NCBI RefSeq assembly: GCF_900104605.1
Contig: NZ_LT629960.1
Span: 310,001-374,000, forward strand
Origin: Tidjanibacter massiliensis
GTDB lineage: Bacteria > Bacteroidota > Bacteroidia > Bacteroidales > Rikenellaceae
Direction of reading: 5' to 3'
DNA: 64,000 bases
Positions within the stretch are counted from its first letter, which is position 1, and each line of letters begins with the position of its first letter. Made by a program: the position numbers and the translations under genes. Positions 12,957 to 21,156 of the stretch are shown here, in pieces. The notes beneath the pieces are model-generated. The model did no database searches. It had not been told where the DNA came from and saw only the letters and a program-made list of their open reading frames with translations.

Positions 12957-13574
12957 ATGGAAAACAAACTTCAGGAACTGACCAACAAGCTCTATGAGGA
13001 GGGGCTTGCCAAAGGGCGCAGCGATGCGGAGAGACTCGTAGCGGATGCGCAGGCGAAGGCCGACGCTATCGTAAGGGAGGCCGAGGAGAAGGCAGCCGCC
13101 GTCGTGGAGGAGGCCCGCCGTAAGGCGGAGGAGCTTCGCAGAAATACCATGACGGAAGTGACCTTGGCCGGGCGTCAGGCCGTCGGTGCGCTCAAGGAGC
13201 ACATTTCGGAGATGATAATCGCCAAAACCCTCTCCGGACCGGTGCATGAGGCGGCAGTGGACCCCGCATTCGTGCGGGAGATGCTGCTCGCCGTCGCGGC
13301 GGGCTGGCGCGCCGATTCGGCGGGAAAGGTGACGCTCTCGGCGCTGCTTCCGGCCGAGTGGCAGGAGCGGTTCGGCAAGGAGTTCGAAGCCGCGGCCAAG
13401 AGCCTGCTGGCGCAGGGGGTGGAGGTCGGTTATTCCGACAGTGTCCGCAGCGGATTCCGGATAGGCGAAAAAAACGGCGGATATTATATCAGCTTTTCCG
13501 AAGCCGATTTCGAGGCGCTGCTGTCTGAATTTCTGAAGGAGCGGGTGGCGAAAATGCTGTACGCCGAAAAATAG
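12957..13574 (+). CDS. atpE: V-type ATP synthase subunit E
   Basis: This is the peripheral-stalk subunit linking the catalytic A/B head to the membrane part. The 205-aa product has the expected long N-terminal coiled coil, rich in Ala, Glu, Lys and Arg (residues ~8-65), followed by a globular C-terminal domain. It is the first gene of the operon E-DUF2764-A-B-x-y-D-I-K. No separate G/H subunit, the usual coiled-coil partner, is encoded in the operon. Confidence 0.88.
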   Translation: MENKLQELTNKLYEEGLAKGRSDAERLVADAQAKADAIVREAEEKAAAVVEEARRKAEELRRNTMTEVTLAGRQAVGALKEHISEMIIAKTLSGPVHEAAVDPAFVREMLLAVAAGWRADSAGKVTLSALLPAEWQERFGKEFEAAAKSLLAQGVEVGYSDSVRSGFRIGEKNGGYYISFSEADFEALLSEFLKERVAKMLYAEK

Positions 13575-13580
13575 GTCGAT

Positions 13581-14429
13581 ATGTTTCGGAAAGATTACTA
13601 TTGTCTCATCGCAGGGCTCAGGGAGTATTCGCTCGATGCAGAGAAGAAGGGTTTCGATGCCCCGGCCATCATCGCGGAGATAAAGGAGGAGCTCTCTGCG
13701 CGTGACCGCAGGACGGTGGAGCTGTTCTATACGTATTACGATATAGAGAATATCGTCAGCCTCCGGGCCGGTAGGGAGCACTTCTCGGCGTTGGGCAATC
13801 TTTCGCGCGAGGAGCTGCAGGAGGAGCTCGTCTCCCCGTCGCGGCTTCCCCTCTTCCTCGGCCGGGTGATAACCGCTTTCAATGCGGCCGACAAGGAGGG
13901 GGAAGGTACGGACGTCAGCGAGGAGGTGGATATGGAGAAGTCTCTCGAACGGAATCTGTTCGCTGCCTATTATGCCGCGTGCGCCCGGTCGTCGTCGAAG
14001 TTCATGAGGAGGTGGGCGGAGTTCGACCGGACACTGCGTAACATAGCGGCCGCATTCGCCGCACGGCGTCGCGGGATTCCCGTGGCGGAGGTCATCGTGG
14101 GTACGGGCGATATAGAGAGTGCGCTCGCACGCAGCTCCGCAGCCGATTTCGGAATCAAGGGAGAAGTCGCTTATGTGGACCGCGTGATGCTTGCCGTGGC
14201 CGACGACAGCAATCTGGTGGAGAAGGAGAACCGGATGGATGCCATCCGTTGGGAAATGGCCGACGAACTCACCCTGACGAACTATTTCGATTTGGATTTC
14301 ATCCTCGGCTATCTGGTCAAGGTGAATATCATCCACCGGTGGGCGGCGCTCGACCCGCAGCGCGGACGGGAGATGCTCGGCAGACTCGTGGAGGGTCTGA
14401 CGGCGTCCGGAACGCTGCCCGACATGTAA
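13581..14429 (+). CDS. DUF2764 family protein in the V-ATPase operon (subunit C position)
   Basis: This 282-aa soluble, largely helical protein begins MFRKDYYCLIAGLREYSLD and carries DIENIVSLR, which place it in DUF2764. That family is found almost only in V-type ATPase operons of Bacteroidetes and some other bacteria. It sits 6 nt after subunit E, where other operons encode subunit C (the d-type subunit bridging rotor and stator), and no recognisable subunit C occurs elsewhere in the cluster. A role as the C/d equivalent is inferred from position and size. Confidence 0.85.
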   Translation: MFRKDYYCLIAGLREYSLDAEKKGFDAPAIIAEIKEELSARDRRTVELFYTYYDIENIVSLRAGREHFSALGNLSREELQEELVSPSRLPLFLGRVITAFNAADKEGEGTDVSEEVDMEKSLERNLFAAYYAACARSSSKFMRRWAEFDRTLRNIAAAFAARRRGIPVAEVIVGTGDIESALARSSAADFGIKGEVAYVDRVMLAVADDSNLVEKENRMDAIRWEMADELTLTNYFDLDFILGYLVKVNIIHRWAALDPQRGREMLGRLVEGLTASGTLPDM

Positions 14430-14453
14430 ACCGACAAAAACAAAGAGACAGAT

Positions 14454-16214
14454 ATGAAAACGAAAGGTAAAGTAACCGGCATCATTTCCAACATCGTTAT
14501 CGTGAAGACGGAGGGACCGGTGGCACAGAACGAGATAGCCACCGTGAAGCTCGGCGAGGTGAGAATGATGGCCGAAGTCATCAAGGTCGTCGGCGACGAT
14601 GCCTATATACAGGTGTTCGACAGTACCCGCGGCCTGCGGATGGGGGCCGAGGTGGAGTTCGAGGGGCACATGCTCGAAGCCACGCTCGGACCGGGCATCC
14701 TCTCGAAGAATTACGACGGTCTGCAGAACGACCTGGCCGATATGGACGGTCTGTTCATCCGGCGCGGGCAGCGTACCTCGCCGCTGAACGAGGAGACACT
14801 CTGGGAGTTCCGTCCGCTGGCCAAACCGGGCGACCGGGTAGAGGCAGGCGACTGGCTCGGCGAGGTGAAGGAGCAGTGGATAATGCACAAGATAATGGTG
14901 CCTTTCGCGTTCGAGGGTAGCTATACCGTCCGTAGCGTGGCCGGAGCAGGAGAGTATAATATCAACCATACTGTGGCCGTGCTCGAAGATGCGCAGGGCG
15001 GGGAACATCCGGTGACGATGGTGCAGAAGTGGCCGGTGAAGCGTCCCATCAAGGCGTATGTGTCCAAGCCGCGTCCTTCGCGCATACTCGAAACCGGTGT
15101 CCGGCCGATAGATACTTTCAATCCGATAGCCGACGGCGGTACGGGATTCATTCCCGGGCCTTTCGGTGCGGGCAAGACGGTGTTGCAGCACGCTATCGCC
15201 AAGCAGGCCGAGGCCGACATCATCATCATGATTGCCTGCGGGGAGCGCGCCAACGAGGTGGTGGAAATCTTCGCGGAGTTCCCCCATCTGGACGACCCCC
15301 ATACGGGACACAAGCTGATGGAGCGGACGACTATCATCTGCAACACCTCCAACATGCCCGTCGCCTCGCGCGAGGCGTCCGTCTATACGGGAATGACCAT
15401 CGGGGAGTATTACCGGGCCATGGGGCTGAAGGTGCTGATTCTCGCCGACTCCACCTCGCGCTGGGCGCAGGCGCTGCGCGAGATGAGCAACCGTCTGGAA
15501 GAGCTTCCGGGACAGGACGCCTTTCCGATGGACCTCTCGGCCGTCATATCCAATTTTTACGCCCGTGCCGGACTGGTGCACCTGCGCAACGGTGCGACGG
15601 GTTCGGTGACTTTCCTCGGTACGGTGTCGCCGGCGGGCGGTAACCTGAAGGAGCCGGTGACGGAGGCCACCCAAAAGGCGGCCCGCTGTTTTTACGCCCT
15701 TTCGCAGCAGCGTGCCGACAGCAAGCGCTATCCGGCCATCGACCCGCTGGACAGCTACTCCAAATACCTCGAATATCCGGAGATAATCGAATACCTCGAT
15801 GAACGGGTGGAACCGGGATGGGTGGACCTCGTGAACAGAGGCAAGACCATCGTCCAGCGCGGCAAGGAGGCCTCCGAGCAGATTGACATTCTCGGCGACG
15901 ACGGTGTGCCGGTGGAGTACCACGACCGCTTCTGGAAGAGCGAGCTGATAGATTTCGTGATATTGCAGCAGGATGCTTTCGATGCGGTGGATGCCAATAC
16001 GCCGCTCGACAGACAGCGGTACATGTACAATCTCGTACTCGACATCTGCGACCGCAAATTCGGTTTCGACGATTTCCAGAGCTGCGTCGAGTTCTACAAA
16101 TCGCTCATCAACCTTTTCAAACAGCTCAACTATTCCGAATGGGAGAGCGACAAGTTCGCCGAATACCGTGCGCGAATCGACGAGATGGTCGCCGCGAAGG
16201 AGTCAAACAAATAA
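14454..16214 (+). CDS. atpA: V-type ATP synthase subunit A (catalytic)
   Basis: This is the catalytic subunit that hydrolyses or makes ATP at the A/B interface. The 586-aa product has the beta-barrel N-domain, the A-subunit-specific insertion, a Walker A motif GPFGAGKT (near residue 235), and SRWAQALREMS. LIGHT-type IACGERANEV contacts and the C-terminal helical domain are also present. Length equals the family norm, and it is followed closely by subunit B. Confidence 0.97.
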   Translation: MKTKGKVTGIISNIVIVKTEGPVAQNEIATVKLGEVRMMAEVIKVVGDDAYIQVFDSTRGLRMGAEVEFEGHMLEATLGPGILSKNYDGLQNDLADMDGLFIRRGQRTSPLNEETLWEFRPLAKPGDRVEAGDWLGEVKEQWIMHKIMVPFAFEGSYTVRSVAGAGEYNINHTVAVLEDAQGGEHPVTMVQKWPVKRPIKAYVSKPRPSRILETGVRPIDTFNPIADGGTGFIPGPFGAGKTVLQHAIAKQAEADIIIMIACGERANEVVEIFAEFPHLDDPHTGHKLMERTTIICNTSNMPVASREASVYTGMTIGEYYRAMGLKVLILADSTSRWAQALREMSNRLEELPGQDAFPMDLSAVISNFYARAGLVHLRNGATGSVTFLGTVSPAGGNLKEPVTEATQKAARCFYALSQQRADSKRYPAIDPLDSYSKYLEYPEIIEYLDERVEPGWVDLVNRGKTIVQRGKEASEQIDILGDDGVPVEYHDRFWKSELIDFVILQQDAFDAVDANTPLDRQRYMYNLVLDICDRKFGFDDFQSCVEFYKSLINLFKQLNYSEWESDKFAEYRARIDEMVAAKESNK

Positions 16215-16227
16215 ATCCGTCACTGTC

Positions 16228-17553
16228 ATGACAACGAAAGCATTTCAGAAAATATACACCAAGATAGACAACATTACCAAAGCCACCGTGACGGTCAGGG
16301 CGCAGGGCGTCGGCAATGACGAGCTGGCCACCGTCGGCGGTAAGCTGGCTCAGGTGGTGCGCATTTCGGGCGACGACATCACGCTGCAGGTATTTCAGGG
16401 AACGGAGGGTATCGCCACCGATGCGGAGGTGGTTTTCCACGGCGAGCCGCCGGTGCTGAAGGTGAGCGACGAACTGGCGGGCCGATTCTTCGATGCCTAC
16501 GGAAATCCGCTCGACGGCGGCATGCCGGTGGAGGGCGAGGCACGGGAGATAGGCGGCCCGACGGTGAACCCCTTCAAACGTATCCAGCCCTCGGAACTCA
16601 TCGCCACCGGTATCGCCGGTATCGACCTGAACAATACGATAGTTTCCGGGCAGAAGATACCTTTTTTCGCCGACCCCGACCAGCCCTACAACCAGGTGAT
16701 GGCCGATGTGGCGCTGCGTGCGCAGGCCGATAAAATCATCCTCGGCGGTATGGGCATGACCAACGACGACTATCTCTATTTCAAGAATCTGTTCGAGAAT
16801 GCCGGGGTGCTCGACCGCATCGTATGTTTCGTGAACACGACCGAGAACCCGCCTGTGGAACGGCTTCTGGTGCCCGATATGGCGCTCACTGCGGCCGAAT
16901 ATTTCGCCGTGGACAAGGGCGAAAAGGTACTCGTGCTGTTGACGGACATGACGCTGTATGCCGATGCGCTGGCCATCGTGTCGAACCGTATGGACCAGAT
17001 ACCCTCGAAGGACTCCATGCCGGGGTCGCTCTATTCCGACCTGGCGAAGATATACGAGAAGGCCGTGCAGCTTCCCAACGGCGGTTCGATAACCATCATT
17101 GCCGTGACCACCCTTTCGGGCGGCGACATTACCAATGCCGTGCCCGACAATACGGGGTATATCACCGAGGGACAGCTCTTCCTGCGTAAGGACAGCGATA
17201 CGGGCAAGGTTATCGTAGACCCTTTCCGAAGCCTTTCACGTCTGAAACAGCTTGTGATAGGGAAGAAGACCCGCGAGGACCATCCGCAGGTGATGAATGC
17301 CGCGGTGCGGCTCTATTCCGATGCGGCCAACGCCAAGACCAAGCTGGAGAACGGCTTCGACCTCTCCGATTACGACGAACGGACGCTGAAGTTCGCCAAG
17401 GAGTATTCCGAAAAGCTGCTGGCCATCGACGTCAATATCGAAATTACCGAGATGCTCGATACGGCATGGCGGCTCTTCGCGAAATATTTTACCAAGAGCG
17501 AGGTCGCCATCAAGGAGGCGCTGACCGAGAAGTATTGGCCCCGGACAGCCTGA
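16228..17553 (+). CDS. atpB: V-type ATP synthase subunit B
   Basis: This non-catalytic nucleotide-binding partner of subunit A alternates with it in the hexameric head. The ATG at 16228 gives 441 aa beginning MTTKAFQKIYTKIDNITKAT. The same frame stays open upstream through the end of subunit A, but the family start and a 13-nt gap support 16228. B-family blocks GGPTVNPFKRIQPSELIATG and SKDSMPGSLYSDLAKIYEKA are present. The Walker A lysine motif is absent, as expected for subunit B. Confidence 0.96.
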   Translation: MTTKAFQKIYTKIDNITKATVTVRAQGVGNDELATVGGKLAQVVRISGDDITLQVFQGTEGIATDAEVVFHGEPPVLKVSDELAGRFFDAYGNPLDGGMPVEGEAREIGGPTVNPFKRIQPSELIATGIAGIDLNNTIVSGQKIPFFADPDQPYNQVMADVALRAQADKIILGGMGMTNDDYLYFKNLFENAGVLDRIVCFVNTTENPPVERLLVPDMALTAAEYFAVDKGEKVLVLLTDMTLYADALAIVSNRMDQIPSKDSMPGSLYSDLAKIYEKAVQLPNGGSITIIAVTTLSGGDITNAVPDNTGYITEGQLFLRKDSDTGKVIVDPFRSLSRLKQLVIGKKTREDHPQVMNAAVRLYSDAANAKTKLENGFDLSDYDERTLKFAKEYSEKLLAIDVNIEITEMLDTAWRLFAKYFTKSEVAIKEALTEKYWPRTA

Positions 17554-17560
17554 ACGGAAT

Positions 17561-17800
17561 ATGGCGGGGCGCATGAATTGCTGGTTGTACGGTTTGTTGA
17601 CGAGTGTCGTCATGCTGGTGCTTGTGCATGTGCCGATGCTGGTCGCAGGAGGATTTCCCGAAAAGGGGCAATGGATGCCTGCGATAGCGGTTTGGGTGGT
17701 GACGCTTGCGGCGGGAACGCTGATTTTCGGCATCCTCGAAAGGCGGAAGGAGCGTAACCGACAGGGTGGAGAAGAGAAACAGGCGCGAGACGGCCGTTAG
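17561..17800 (+). CDS. Small membrane protein with one W-x-Y-G-L two-helix unit, V-ATPase operon
   Basis: This 79-aa protein has two predicted membrane helices (about residues 9-30 and 40-60) and a charged, Arg/Glu/Lys-rich C-terminal tail. It opens with the motif W-L-Y-G-L and ends its second helix with GTLIFGILERR. The same 56-residue unit occurs twice in the next gene. It lies 7 nt after subunit B and before subunit D, on the same strand and inside the operon. A later ATG at 17573 is possible, but 17561 keeps the same distance to the first Trp as in the neighbour. No known V-ATPase subunit or assembly factor was recognised. Confidence 0.75.
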   Translation: MAGRMNCWLYGLLTSVVMLVLVHVPMLVAGGFPEKGQWMPAIAVWVVTLAAGTLIFGILERRKERNRQGGEEKQARDGR

Positions 17801-17823
17801 GAACCGGTTACGGAATCGGATAT

Positions 17824-18255
17824 ATGAAAAGAAGCGGAGACAGTTGGTTGTACGGTTTGATGGTGAGTACGGCATATTGGGTACTCATTGTCGTGACGGT
17901 CATGTTGCTGTCCGAATACGATAGACACGACCTCGTGCTGCTCCTGCTGATAGGGGTGTTCGTTGCAGGGGGCGGTACCCTGCTTGTCGGCGGTATCGAC
18001 CTCAGGGAGCGTCGGTATGCGGTACGGCCGGCGGAGACGGCGATGCCGCCGTGGAGATACGGTTTGTGGCAGGGTATCAAGCTGCTGGCGGTGGTCGTTC
18101 TTGTCAAAGGGGTGAATGGTACGCTTTGGGACGCTTCGGTGTGGATGTGGTGTGCCGCTGCGGTATGTCTGCTGGGCGGAAGTACGTTGCTGCTGGGCGC
18201 CGTGGAACGCTGGCGCCGTACGCAATGGGAAAAAGAGAAGAACTATGGCAATTAA
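17824..18255 (+). CDS. Four-helix membrane protein made of two W-x-Y-G-L units, V-ATPase operon
   Basis: This 143-aa protein contains two tandem copies of the unit seen once in the preceding gene. Unit 1 (residues ~8-63) runs from SWLYGLMVST to GGTLLVGGIDLRE. Unit 2 (~79-134) runs from PWRYGLWQGI to GSTLLLGAVERWR. Each unit has two predicted helices, and a charged linker separates them. The stop overlaps the subunit D start by 11 nt, so the gene is tightly built into the operon. The role is unknown; position suggests a factor that binds or assembles the membrane sector (inference). Confidence 0.78.
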   Translation: MKRSGDSWLYGLMVSTAYWVLIVVTVMLLSEYDRHDLVLLLLIGVFVAGGGTLLVGGIDLRERRYAVRPAETAMPPWRYGLWQGIKLLAVVVLVKGVNGTLWDASVWMWCAAAVCLLGGSTLLLGAVERWRRTQWEKEKNYGN

Positions 18256-18850
18256 ATTTCAATATAACAAGACGTCGCTCGGCGAGATGCGCAAGAAGCT
18301 CCAGATGCGCCAGCGTGCCCTTCCGACCATTAAAAGCAAGGAGTCGGCGCTGCGGCTGGAGGTGAAGAAGGCGCGCGATGCGGCTGCCGGTGCGCAGGAG
18401 CGCATGGAGGCGCTGCTCGGCCGGTATGAATACATGTCGGCGCTCTGGGGCGAATTCGACCCCGGTCTGCTGACGGTGAAGGGGGTGGATCTGCGCATGT
18501 CGAAGATAGCCGGCGTGAATGTGCCGGTTCTCGGCGCGGTCGATTTCGAGGAGAAGGATTACGACCTGTTCAGCAGTCCGGTGTGGTATGCCGACGGCAT
18601 CGCCCTGCTCAAGGAGGTTGCGCAGGCGGGTATCGAGTCCGAGGTCTATATGCGCCGTATGGAGGTGCTCGACCATGCCCGCAAGAAGACCACCCAGAAG
18701 GTAAACCTGTACGAAAAGGTGCAGATACCGGGTTATGAAGCCGCCATTCTCAAGATAAGGCGCTTTCTGGAGGATGAGGAGAACCTCTCCAAGAGCGCAC
18801 AGAAGATAGTGAAGAGCAAACACGAACAACAGGAACCGGAAGCCGTATGA
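18245..18850 (+). CDS. atpD: V-type ATP synthase subunit D
   Basis: This is the central rotor shaft. The ATG at 18245 gives 201 aa starting MAIKFQYNKTSLGEMRKKLQ, the standard opening of subunit D. Long N- and C-terminal helices form the antiparallel coiled coil, and the KVNLYEKVQIPGYEAAILKI block near the C-terminus is conserved. The start lies inside the previous gene. The end overlaps subunit I by 4 nt (ATGA). Subunit F, which normally pairs with D, is not found in the operon. Confidence 0.95.
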   Translation: MAIKFQYNKTSLGEMRKKLQMRQRALPTIKSKESALRLEVKKARDAAAGAQERMEALLGRYEYMSALWGEFDPGLLTVKGVDLRMSKIAGVNVPVLGAVDFEEKDYDLFSSPVWYADGIALLKEVAQAGIESEVYMRRMEVLDHARKKTTQKVNLYEKVQIPGYEAAILKIRRFLEDEENLSKSAQKIVKSKHEQQEPEAV

Positions 18851-20655
18851 TAGTGAAGATGAGCAAATATACTTTTGTGCTCTATCATGAGAGGCAAAAG
18901 GAGTTTCTCGCGGCGCTGCAGGAGCTCGGTCTGGTCGATATAACGACCACGGGCTGGGAAGCGAACGGCGAGGAGCGGGCAATGCTGGCCGAACTCGAAC
19001 AGCACCGTGCGGCGAAGAGCTGTTTCGCCGAACTCGCCAAAGAGGAGGGATTTGAGCCGGGCGAGCCTTTCAGCGACGGGGAGGAGGCTTTCAGGCAATA
19101 CCTGCAGGCTTCGGCTGCCATCGAGGAGTTGAAGGGGCGGCTGGAGAAGGCACGCAGGGAGGCGGACGAGTTGGCCGTTTGGGGCGACTTTTCGCCGGAA
19201 GCGGTGAAAAAACTTGCGGAGGATGGAGTGGTGCTGCGCTTTTTCTCTGTTTATGACAGCGAATTTGCGGCTGTGCGGCGGGCGGCCGGCGATGCGATTA
19301 TCGTGGAACCGGTAGCCGAACGGGAGGGACGCACTTATTTCGTGGTCGTCGCACCCGACGGCGGAGAGATTCCGTTCGATGCACAGGAACAGAAGGCACC
19401 GGAAACGACCGCTGCCGGAAAACGCCGGGAGATAGCGGCCATGGAGGCGCAGATGGATGAGCTGCGGGCGGTAATGGCCCGTGCGTATGCTTCGCGCGAT
19501 GCCATCGAGGCACATGGCGAACGGCTCCGTGAACGGCTCGATTTCAGTCGTGCGGCGGGCAGCGGCCGCCGCGAAGTGGAGAACCGGCTCGTTATCATGG
19601 AGGGCTGGGCCACGCAGGAGACTTCGGCGCGGGTGGACGAGCTGCTGGAGGGATATCCGGATGTCGTCTATTTCAAGGAGAAGCCTACGCCGCAGGACGA
19701 TACTCCCGTCGTTCTGAAAAACAACCGGTTCGTCAATCCGTTCGAGGTCATCGGACAGTTCTATGCGCTTCCGAAATACGGAACGATGGACCTGACCGCT
19801 TTTTTCGGACCTTTCTATATGATATTTTTCGGGTTCTGCCTCGGCGATGCCGGTTACGGACTGATTCTCGTGCTGGCTTCGTTCTTCCTGCGCAGGAAAA
19901 AGACGACTGCCATGAAACAGATAGCCAACCTGACGCTGCTTTGCGGTCTCGCTTCGGTGCTTTTCGGGTTTCTGGCCGGTTCGTTTTTCGGGGTACAGCT
20001 TGCCGGTGTGAAGATGTTCGCCGGCATACGCGAGAAGTTTTTCGATACGGACATGCTCTTTACGCTGTCGCTGGGGCTCGGTCTCGTGCAGATAATTTTC
20101 GCGCTGGTGCTCAACATCGTCAATGTGTCGCGCCGCTTCGGATTCAAATATTCGCTCGGAACGCTCGGATGGCTCATGATACTCGTCGGCGGGCTCGGCA
20201 TGATGTTTCTGCCGGGAGTGGGAATCGTATTGCCTTCCCCGGTCTATTATATCGTGATGGGCGTCGGTGCGGTGCTGATGCTGTTTCTCCACAATCCGGA
20301 GAAGAACCCGCTGGTCAATTTCGGCAGCGGACTCTGGAATACCTACAACAACGTCACGGGCTTGCTGGGCGATGTGCTGAGTTATATCCGGCTCTTCGCA
20401 CTCTGCCTGTCGGGCGGTACGCTCGCACTGGTCTTCAATGACCTCGCATTCGGTCTTACGGCCGACATGCCCGTGGTCGTGAGCCAGATAGTGGCCATCA
20501 TCATCCTGCTCTTCGGTCACAGCATCAATCTCTTCATGTCAGCGCTCGGTGCTTTCGTACATCCGATGCGTCTGACCTTCGTGGAGTTCTACAAGAACGC
20601 CGGTTTTGAAAGTACGCAGCGGGAGTTCTCTCCGCTCAGAAAAGCAGAAAAATAA
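18847..20655 (+). CDS. atpI: V-type ATP synthase subunit I (a-type stator subunit)
   Basis: This is the membrane stator subunit that forms the ion half-channels against the K ring. The product is 602 aa: a cytosolic N-terminal domain with coiled coil (about 1-315), then seven or eight membrane helices. The conserved arginine segment is present as GDVLSYIRLFALCLSGGTLA, as is the FGPFYMIFFGFCLGDAGYGL signature. It begins within the stop of subunit D (ATGA), indicating coupled translation. Confidence 0.95.
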   Translation: MIVKMSKYTFVLYHERQKEFLAALQELGLVDITTTGWEANGEERAMLAELEQHRAAKSCFAELAKEEGFEPGEPFSDGEEAFRQYLQASAAIEELKGRLEKARREADELAVWGDFSPEAVKKLAEDGVVLRFFSVYDSEFAAVRRAAGDAIIVEPVAEREGRTYFVVVAPDGGEIPFDAQEQKAPETTAAGKRREIAAMEAQMDELRAVMARAYASRDAIEAHGERLRERLDFSRAAGSGRREVENRLVIMEGWATQETSARVDELLEGYPDVVYFKEKPTPQDDTPVVLKNNRFVNPFEVIGQFYALPKYGTMDLTAFFGPFYMIFFGFCLGDAGYGLILVLASFFLRRKKTTAMKQIANLTLLCGLASVLFGFLAGSFFGVQLAGVKMFAGIREKFFDTDMLFTLSLGLGLVQIIFALVLNIVNVSRRFGFKYSLGTLGWLMILVGGLGMMFLPGVGIVLPSPVYYIVMGVGAVLMLFLHNPEKNPLVNFGSGLWNTYNNVTGLLGDVLSYIRLFALCLSGGTLALVFNDLAFGLTADMPVVVSQIVAIIILLFGHSINLFMSALGAFVHPMRLTFVEFYKNAGFESTQREFSPLRKAEK

Positions 20656-20661
20656 TTGTAA

Positions 20662-21156
<495 letters not shown>

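Follow-up and report, generated by a model that had tools for sequence, protein, structure and literature searches.

Which purpose do two small genes serve that sit in the middle of the V-ATPase operon of a Tidjanibacter species from the gut (Rikenellaceae, Bacteroidales), and are their products part of the enzyme, helpers of the enzyme or unrelated to it? The operon is found in the window analyzed here, i.e. a stretch of 64,000 nucleotides from a genome (G000) with a completeness of 99.98%. Its seven V-ATPase genes occupy positions 12957-21156 of the + strand in the order E, DUF2764 (C-like), A, B, D, I, K, and the two small genes, p79 and p143, are located between those for subunits B and D:

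12957..13574, + strand: V-ATPase subunit E (NCBIfam NF002424, E = 5.8e-27, under the curated cut-off)
13581..14429, + strand: DUF2764 protein, a C/AC39-like subunit (PF10962, 1.8e-48, and PF01992, 5.1e-07, both above cut-off)
14454..16214, + strand: V-ATPase subunit A (NF003220, 5.5e-222, above cut-off)
16228..17553, + strand: V-ATPase subunit B (NF002555, 5.5e-206, above cut-off; searched from 16225, with the start codon set by hand at 16228)
17561..17800, + strand: p79, 79 aa, one hairpin unit with two predicted helices and an R/K-rich tail (ortholog in G065)
17824..18255, + strand: p143, 143 aa, two tandem hairpin units with four predicted helices (orthologs in five other Tidjanibacter genomes)
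18245..18850, + strand: V-ATPase subunit D, the rotor axle (NF002565, 1.9e-65, above cut-off)
18847..20655, + strand: V-ATPase subunit I (PF01496, 5.8e-14, above cut-off; NF004429, 1.5e-70, under cut-off)
20695..21156, + strand: V-ATPase subunit K with a duplicated c hairpin (PF00137, 4.1e-24, above cut-off)

This layout agrees with a previous sequence-only reading of the window, which had described the 79-aa and 143-aa open reading frames (ORFs), their gaps and an overlap with D. The stop codon of B (17551-17553) is separated from p79 by 7 nt and p79 from p143 by 23 nt, while the 3' end of p143 overlaps the start of D (18245) by 11 nt. No terminator-like site was detected within the insert, and a promoter inside the operon was rejected because all sigma-70-like matches (5 sites in the operon vs 3.5 expected) as well as the single match near the operon to the Bacteroidetes-type pattern lie on the opposite strand. 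From the gene spacing, it can fairly be inferred that p79 and p143 are co-expressed with the enzyme. Comparable contacts are found in the other genomes that carry a gene of this kind (see below): where p79 is missing (six carriers), 4-8 nt separate the stop codon of B from the hairpin gene. An 11-nt overlap with D is shared by five of the six two-unit genes, that of G053 stopping 4 nt upstream of D with no overlap, and the one-unit genes of G259 and G246 both extend 23 nt into D. Such tight contacts and overlaps suggest that translation of the hairpin gene is likely coupled to that of D.

The sequence-only reading had also associated the insert with the apparent lack of F and G subunits, a connection that found no support. 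Among 103 mapped loci, 85 show the plain order E-C-A-B-D-I-K, another 8 read as E-C-A-I-B-D-K, an order put down to misplacement of the I match, as an I-like ORF is present between D and K, and 10 are incomplete or without a detected gene. Judging from the gap lengths (only 5 of 425 gaps other than B-D exceed 200 nt), the mapped operons would as a rule have no room for F and G. The V-ATPase of B. fragilis is likewise described with seven genes (PMC10197588). Missing F and G genes hence look normal for Bacteroidales operons and therefore explain nothing about p79 and p143. Moreover, F and G are soluble stalk proteins, whereas p79 and p143 harbor two and four predicted membrane helices, respectively, and match no V-ATPase profile. 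A few operons contain additional sequence at other positions, such as a 239-aa ORF with six predicted helices (L210) or, by eye, a 148-aa lipoprotein-like ORF (L213), both between the C-like subunit and A, and long gaps of 1869 nt between A and B (L203) and 957 nt between C and A (L159).

The two proteins are built from a common unit that begins with W-x-Y-G and finishes near G-x-x-E, occurring once in p79 (W-L-Y-G ... G-T-L-x-x-G-x-x-E-R-R) and twice in p143, with W8, G11 and G57 (p79 numbering) invariant in 12 units. The proposed repeat is supported by shuffling that kept hydrophobic and polar positions, in which the score of p79 against each half of p143 was matched in 0 of 2000 shuffles; the similarity between the two halves is weaker (20 of 2000 shuffles reach the score). 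A profile from the six first halves gave 18.0-38.3 bits for the six second halves (best of 540 shuffles, 12.6), and the reciprocal profile 9.7-34.6 bits for the first halves (best shuffle, 14.0), those of G037 and G053 falling below the best shuffle, i.e. into noise. Held-out units exceeded the best of 540 shuffles in 9 of 9 cases with the first-half profile and in 7 of 9 with the second-half profile, and for a p79 profile the best of 780 shuffles was surpassed by 12 of the 13 units held out, the exception being the first half of G053. Thus, the units of p79 and p143 are homologous. Merely the spacing given earlier needs correction: instead of 45-46 residues, counting by hand between the first Trp and the Thr in the (G/S)-T-L motif gives 45, 44 and 44. 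In a tree of units, the first halves cluster (support 80), as do the second halves (86), in keeping with a single internal duplication that preceded the split of the six two-unit species; the placement of p79 and the one-unit protein is poorly supported.

Structure prediction is consistent with the two membrane helices per unit that had been proposed. An AlphaFold2 model of p143 from six sequences comprises helices at 3-29, 34-64, 76-98 and 106-141 with moderate confidence (pLDDT 75, pTM 0.66), and the model of p79 helices at 5-29 and 39-77 with low confidence (pLDDT 69, pTM 0.33). Each unit would accordingly be a helical hairpin with both ends predicted in the cytoplasm. The charges favor this orientation of the ends and the middle loop, as Lys and Arg account for 85 of 344 residues in the presumed cytoplasmic stretches vs 15 of 165 in outer loops, with stretches assigned by hand from the motifs. 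The conserved residues would lie at the cytoplasmic helix ends, where W-x-Y-G starts helix 1 and G-x-x-E ends helix 2, most second units also having W-R-R at the end of helix 2, and conserved glycines would lie within helix 2. Invariant positions of the six two-unit proteins include W8, Y10, G11, R64, W77, G80, E128, W130, R131 and R132 at or near the cytoplasmic side. Others are found within helices 2 and 4 (G51, G56, G118, L122 and G125) or close to the outer loop (G99 and W109). The sole invariant charged residues, R64, E128, R131 and R132, are at helix ends outside the hydrophobic spans.

Neither protein has a match in Pfam or NCBIfam that attains its cut-off. Residues 10-69 of p79 align to DUF4199 (PF13858, E = 0.013), yet with 16.4 bits vs a cut-off of 32.3 and a match to just 1 of 14 unit sequences, p79 falls outside this family; in NCBIfam, p79 weakly matches a family of 4-TM transporters (E = 0.006, 16 of 100 bits). 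At E <= 0.1, the 14 units hit 13 Pfam families, each in at most two units (best 0.002), and the six two-unit proteins nine families in one protein each (best DUF805 at 6e-4), the cut-off being shown for the first member only where several families matched weakly; this scatter was taken as chance. The best PDB sequence match has an E value of 0.17, and a fold search with the moderate-confidence p143 model alone gave 1.4 in the PDB and 2.0 in viral models as best values. A phage, plasmid or defence origin was rejected, as p143 had no tblastn match and PADLOC returned none; in PHROGs, p79 has two weak matches to families of unknown function (best E = 0.006).

Several known proteins nevertheless invite comparison. 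Subunit K is, like p143, a tandem duplicated two-helix hairpin of ~150 aa from the same operon, but paralogy was rejected based on hhalign probabilities of 0.2% and 0.4% (E = 0.36 and 0.16). AtpI/UncI (PF03899), the four-helix chaperone of the F-type c ring, is likewise a small membrane protein from a rotary ATPase operon. It goes with F-type genes, however, while p79 and p143 reside in a V-type operon of a genome without F1-beta over cut-off, and PF03899 is absent among matches of p79 and p143 at E <= 1 and of the 14 units and six two-unit proteins at E <= 0.1. AtpZ/ATPase_gene1 (PF09527), which is similar to p79 in size and helix number, and AtpR (PF12966) also are small membrane proteins accompanying ATPase genes; both families are absent among the p79 and p143 matches, and none of the 23 Tidjanibacter genomes contains a PF09527 match at E <= 0.01. 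Eukaryotic V-ATPases possess small membrane proteins that aid assembly or structure, i.e. Vma21, subunit e and RNAseK, none of which is among the above PDB sequence or fold matches. In agreement with the initial impression that known subunits and assembly factors look different, p79 and p143 represent an orphan membrane family to which nothing in Pfam, NCBIfam or the PDB is convincingly related.

As far as genomes were searched, this family is confined to a narrow set of them. Subunit D is matched in 20 of the 23 Tidjanibacter genomes, and the B-D junction is visible in 19 of them, that of G090 being interrupted by a contig end. Six of the 19 (G000, G065, G053, G059, G019 and G037) have the two-unit gene at this junction and only two of these, G000 and G065, also p79; the lengths of the remaining 13 junctions range from 10 to 184 nt (66 nt in G101). 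A one-unit protein of 90 or 87 aa is encoded at the B-D junction of G259 and G246 (E = 1.6e-11 and 1.5e-10) from genus g22, which probably is Alistipes. The unit profile was searched in overlapping genome sets from the family (268), the order (393) and the phylum (296). Within the family, convincing matches are limited to the six Tidjanibacter carriers, G259 and G246, with seven further genomes having weak matches (E = 7.8e-4 to 0.005), and among the order and phylum genomes nothing outside Tidjanibacter is better than 2.4e-4 (weak matches in seven genomes at 2.4e-4 or worse and in eight at 1e-3 or worse, respectively). Another search yielded 12 weak genomes (E = 0.008 to 0.09), and carrier G053 had a second, weak match (E = 0.05). 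The other weak matches are taken as chance; at the four loci viewed by eye (L096, L097, L098 and L105), V-ATPase genes were not seen. In all eight carriers, the gene occupies the B-D junction, the unit profile detects no second locus in them at E <= 0.01, and each genome holds one to three hairpin units. Family members away from V-ATPase genes had been named at the outset as evidence against a link to the enzyme; as the convincing members are confined to V-ATPase operons among the genomes searched, the proposal passed its own test.

A survey of 153 loci, one per genome, combined the 50 best matches of the D searches (L044-L063 and L112-L141) with 103 hand-chosen regions, carriers included. Of the 150 visible junctions, 8 contain an ORF with a predicted membrane helix, all from the p79/p143 family. 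The other 142 have a median gap of 17.5 nt, and five of them hold a helix-free ORF of 40 aa or more. One of these five junctions (L138 in G354) is 732 nt long and contains an unrelated gene for 209-215 aa, presumably peptidase S51-like. The possibility that the junction of sister species is a genomic repeat was rejected, since searches in four genomes returned only the junction copy of G045 itself and a 27-base piece in G088.

Separately, in five of the 13 non-carrier Tidjanibacter loci, picked by eye (L229, L234, L235, L236 and L238), an RNA hairpin was found between B and D with folding z-scores of -5.7, -3.2, -4.7, -5.7 and -2.3, respectively. Of its 37 consensus pairs, 13 are changed on both sides in at least one of the five sequences. 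No Rfam match was obtained for the four loci searched, and the L152 junction, which was run alongside, lacks the hairpin (z = -0.3). This element may set the ratio of A/B to D; in the carriers, the membrane genes take its place.

As to the history of the insert, a protein tree of B, D and K from 66 genomes unites the six two-unit carriers in one clade (UFBoot 100), next to which G103 branches without insert. G259 and G246 nest inside g22 beside G125, which also has none, so that the junction is occupied in two separate branches, and a scenario of two gains or of a transfer looks simpler than a single gain followed by many losses. For p143, dN/dS values of 0.355 (G000/G065) and 0.262 (G053/G059) were obtained, with 0.427 and 0.277 for two wider pairs and no value for G000/G019, where dS is saturated; p79 gave 0.265 (G000/G065). 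The seven V-ATPase subunits range from 0.007 to 0.268 over the two closer pairs. Both p79 and p143 exceed all seven subunits in G000/G065, and the C-like subunit (0.268) equals p143 in G053/G059. Hence, p79 and p143 are under purifying selection that is weak, i.e. the genes are loosely kept, with frame and motifs maintained across six species. Between G259 and G246, the hairpin gene shows zero synonymous differences. Their DNA (L092 and L093) is near-identical from the 3' end of B through the insert, much of D being somewhat more diverged, and this near-identity from B into the insert points to a likely recent recombination.

Taken together, p79 and p143 can tentatively be proposed as dedicated membrane accessory factors of the V-ATPase, a reading we favor with some reserve, most likely with a transient role in assembly. 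They would have been recruited in one Tidjanibacter lineage and, with a single unit, in a branch of another genus. By analogy, and not by descent, this role could resemble that of the small membrane proteins in F-type operons, among which AtpI (in c-ring assembly), AtpZ and AtpR are reported (PMC4453477, PMC4154653). The hairpin protein, probably made together with D by translational coupling, would most likely hold the K ring and/or subunit I, either during ring building or when D and the C-like subunit are being placed on the ring. Since 142 of 150 junctions lack a hairpin gene, the enzyme presumably works without such proteins in most relatives.

A rather unlikely alternative is that p79 and p143 belong permanently to the membrane sector as extra subunits and stabilize the interface of the K ring with I, comparable to subunit e and RNAseK, small membrane subunits of eukaryotic V-ATPases. 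The operon position, the hairpin architecture and the one to three units per carrier genome would suit this role, but constraint is weak and the genes are missing in sister species. Furthermore, under a strict criterion, Q18K in D and N478D in A are the only carrier-specific changes at otherwise conserved sites, and the absence of any in subunits B, C, E, I and K speaks against an interface that is tight and permanent.

In the window species, as in most of the family genomes searched, the V-ATPase may be the sole rotary ATPase. In its subunit K, L53, T56, Q57, Q102 and E131 lie at a constant offset of 8 from the Na+ ligands of E. hirae. A search for F-type synthase, conducted with the beta subunit only, detected F1-beta above cut-off in none of the six two-unit carriers, and in 16 of the 17 other Tidjanibacter genomes, the exception being G088 (85% complete). 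Conceivably, the hairpin proteins could be regulators, for example by blocking ATP hydrolysis or determining the direction of the enzyme, in cells where the V-type is the only rotary ATPase. Among Tidjanibacter with a visible junction, the contrast of 0 of 6 carriers vs 12 of 13 non-carriers is striking (Fisher p 2.6e-4), and none of the eight carriers has F1-beta above cut-off. However, the Tidjanibacter association amounts to one phylogenetic event, and G259 and G246 are just 85% and 86% complete. F1-beta is moreover rare in the family (45 of 268 genomes, or 46 with the split fragments of G016, many genomes being incomplete), so that its absence from eight of eight carriers is not unusual (Fisher p 0.36). 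Loss of the F-type synthase was therefore rejected as a driver, and regulation appears improbable.

Equally improbable would be a passenger gene in a permissive junction, maintained for reasons that have nothing to do with the ATPase, or for no reason at all. Such permissiveness is illustrated by the unrelated gene at L138 and would tally with the weak constraint, yet the same junction was occupied in two lineages with only weak matches elsewhere, and frame and motifs persist in six species. Least probable, if by little, is a small transporter for Mg2+, Na+ or K+ travelling with the ATPase genes, for which the predicted four-helix tandem hairpin and the precedent of AtpZ, reported to act in Mg2+ supply in alkaliphilic Bacillus (PMC4453477), could be adduced, but no transporter family exceeds a shown cut-off, the nearest being the weak 4-TM match of p79, and the invariant charges lie at helix ends outside the hydrophobic spans.

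Membrane helpers dedicated to the V-ATPase, which would assemble or tune the enzyme, stay the preferred, if tentative, reading. In B. fragilis, subunit K is reported with all Na+ ligands and V-type mutants were almost lost in deoxycholate (PMC10197588); a dedicated membrane helper for this enzyme was not found in searches of the openly licensed literature. A helper found in certain species but not in their sisters would offer a direct test of what small proteins add to a rotary ATPase. More speculatively, and with considerable doubt, a new V-ATPase subunit could be in the making: a one-unit gene would have entered the junction and become a two-unit gene in one lineage, with a one-unit copy beside it in two species, where three hairpins would now be a lineage-specific part of the apparently only rotary ATPase.
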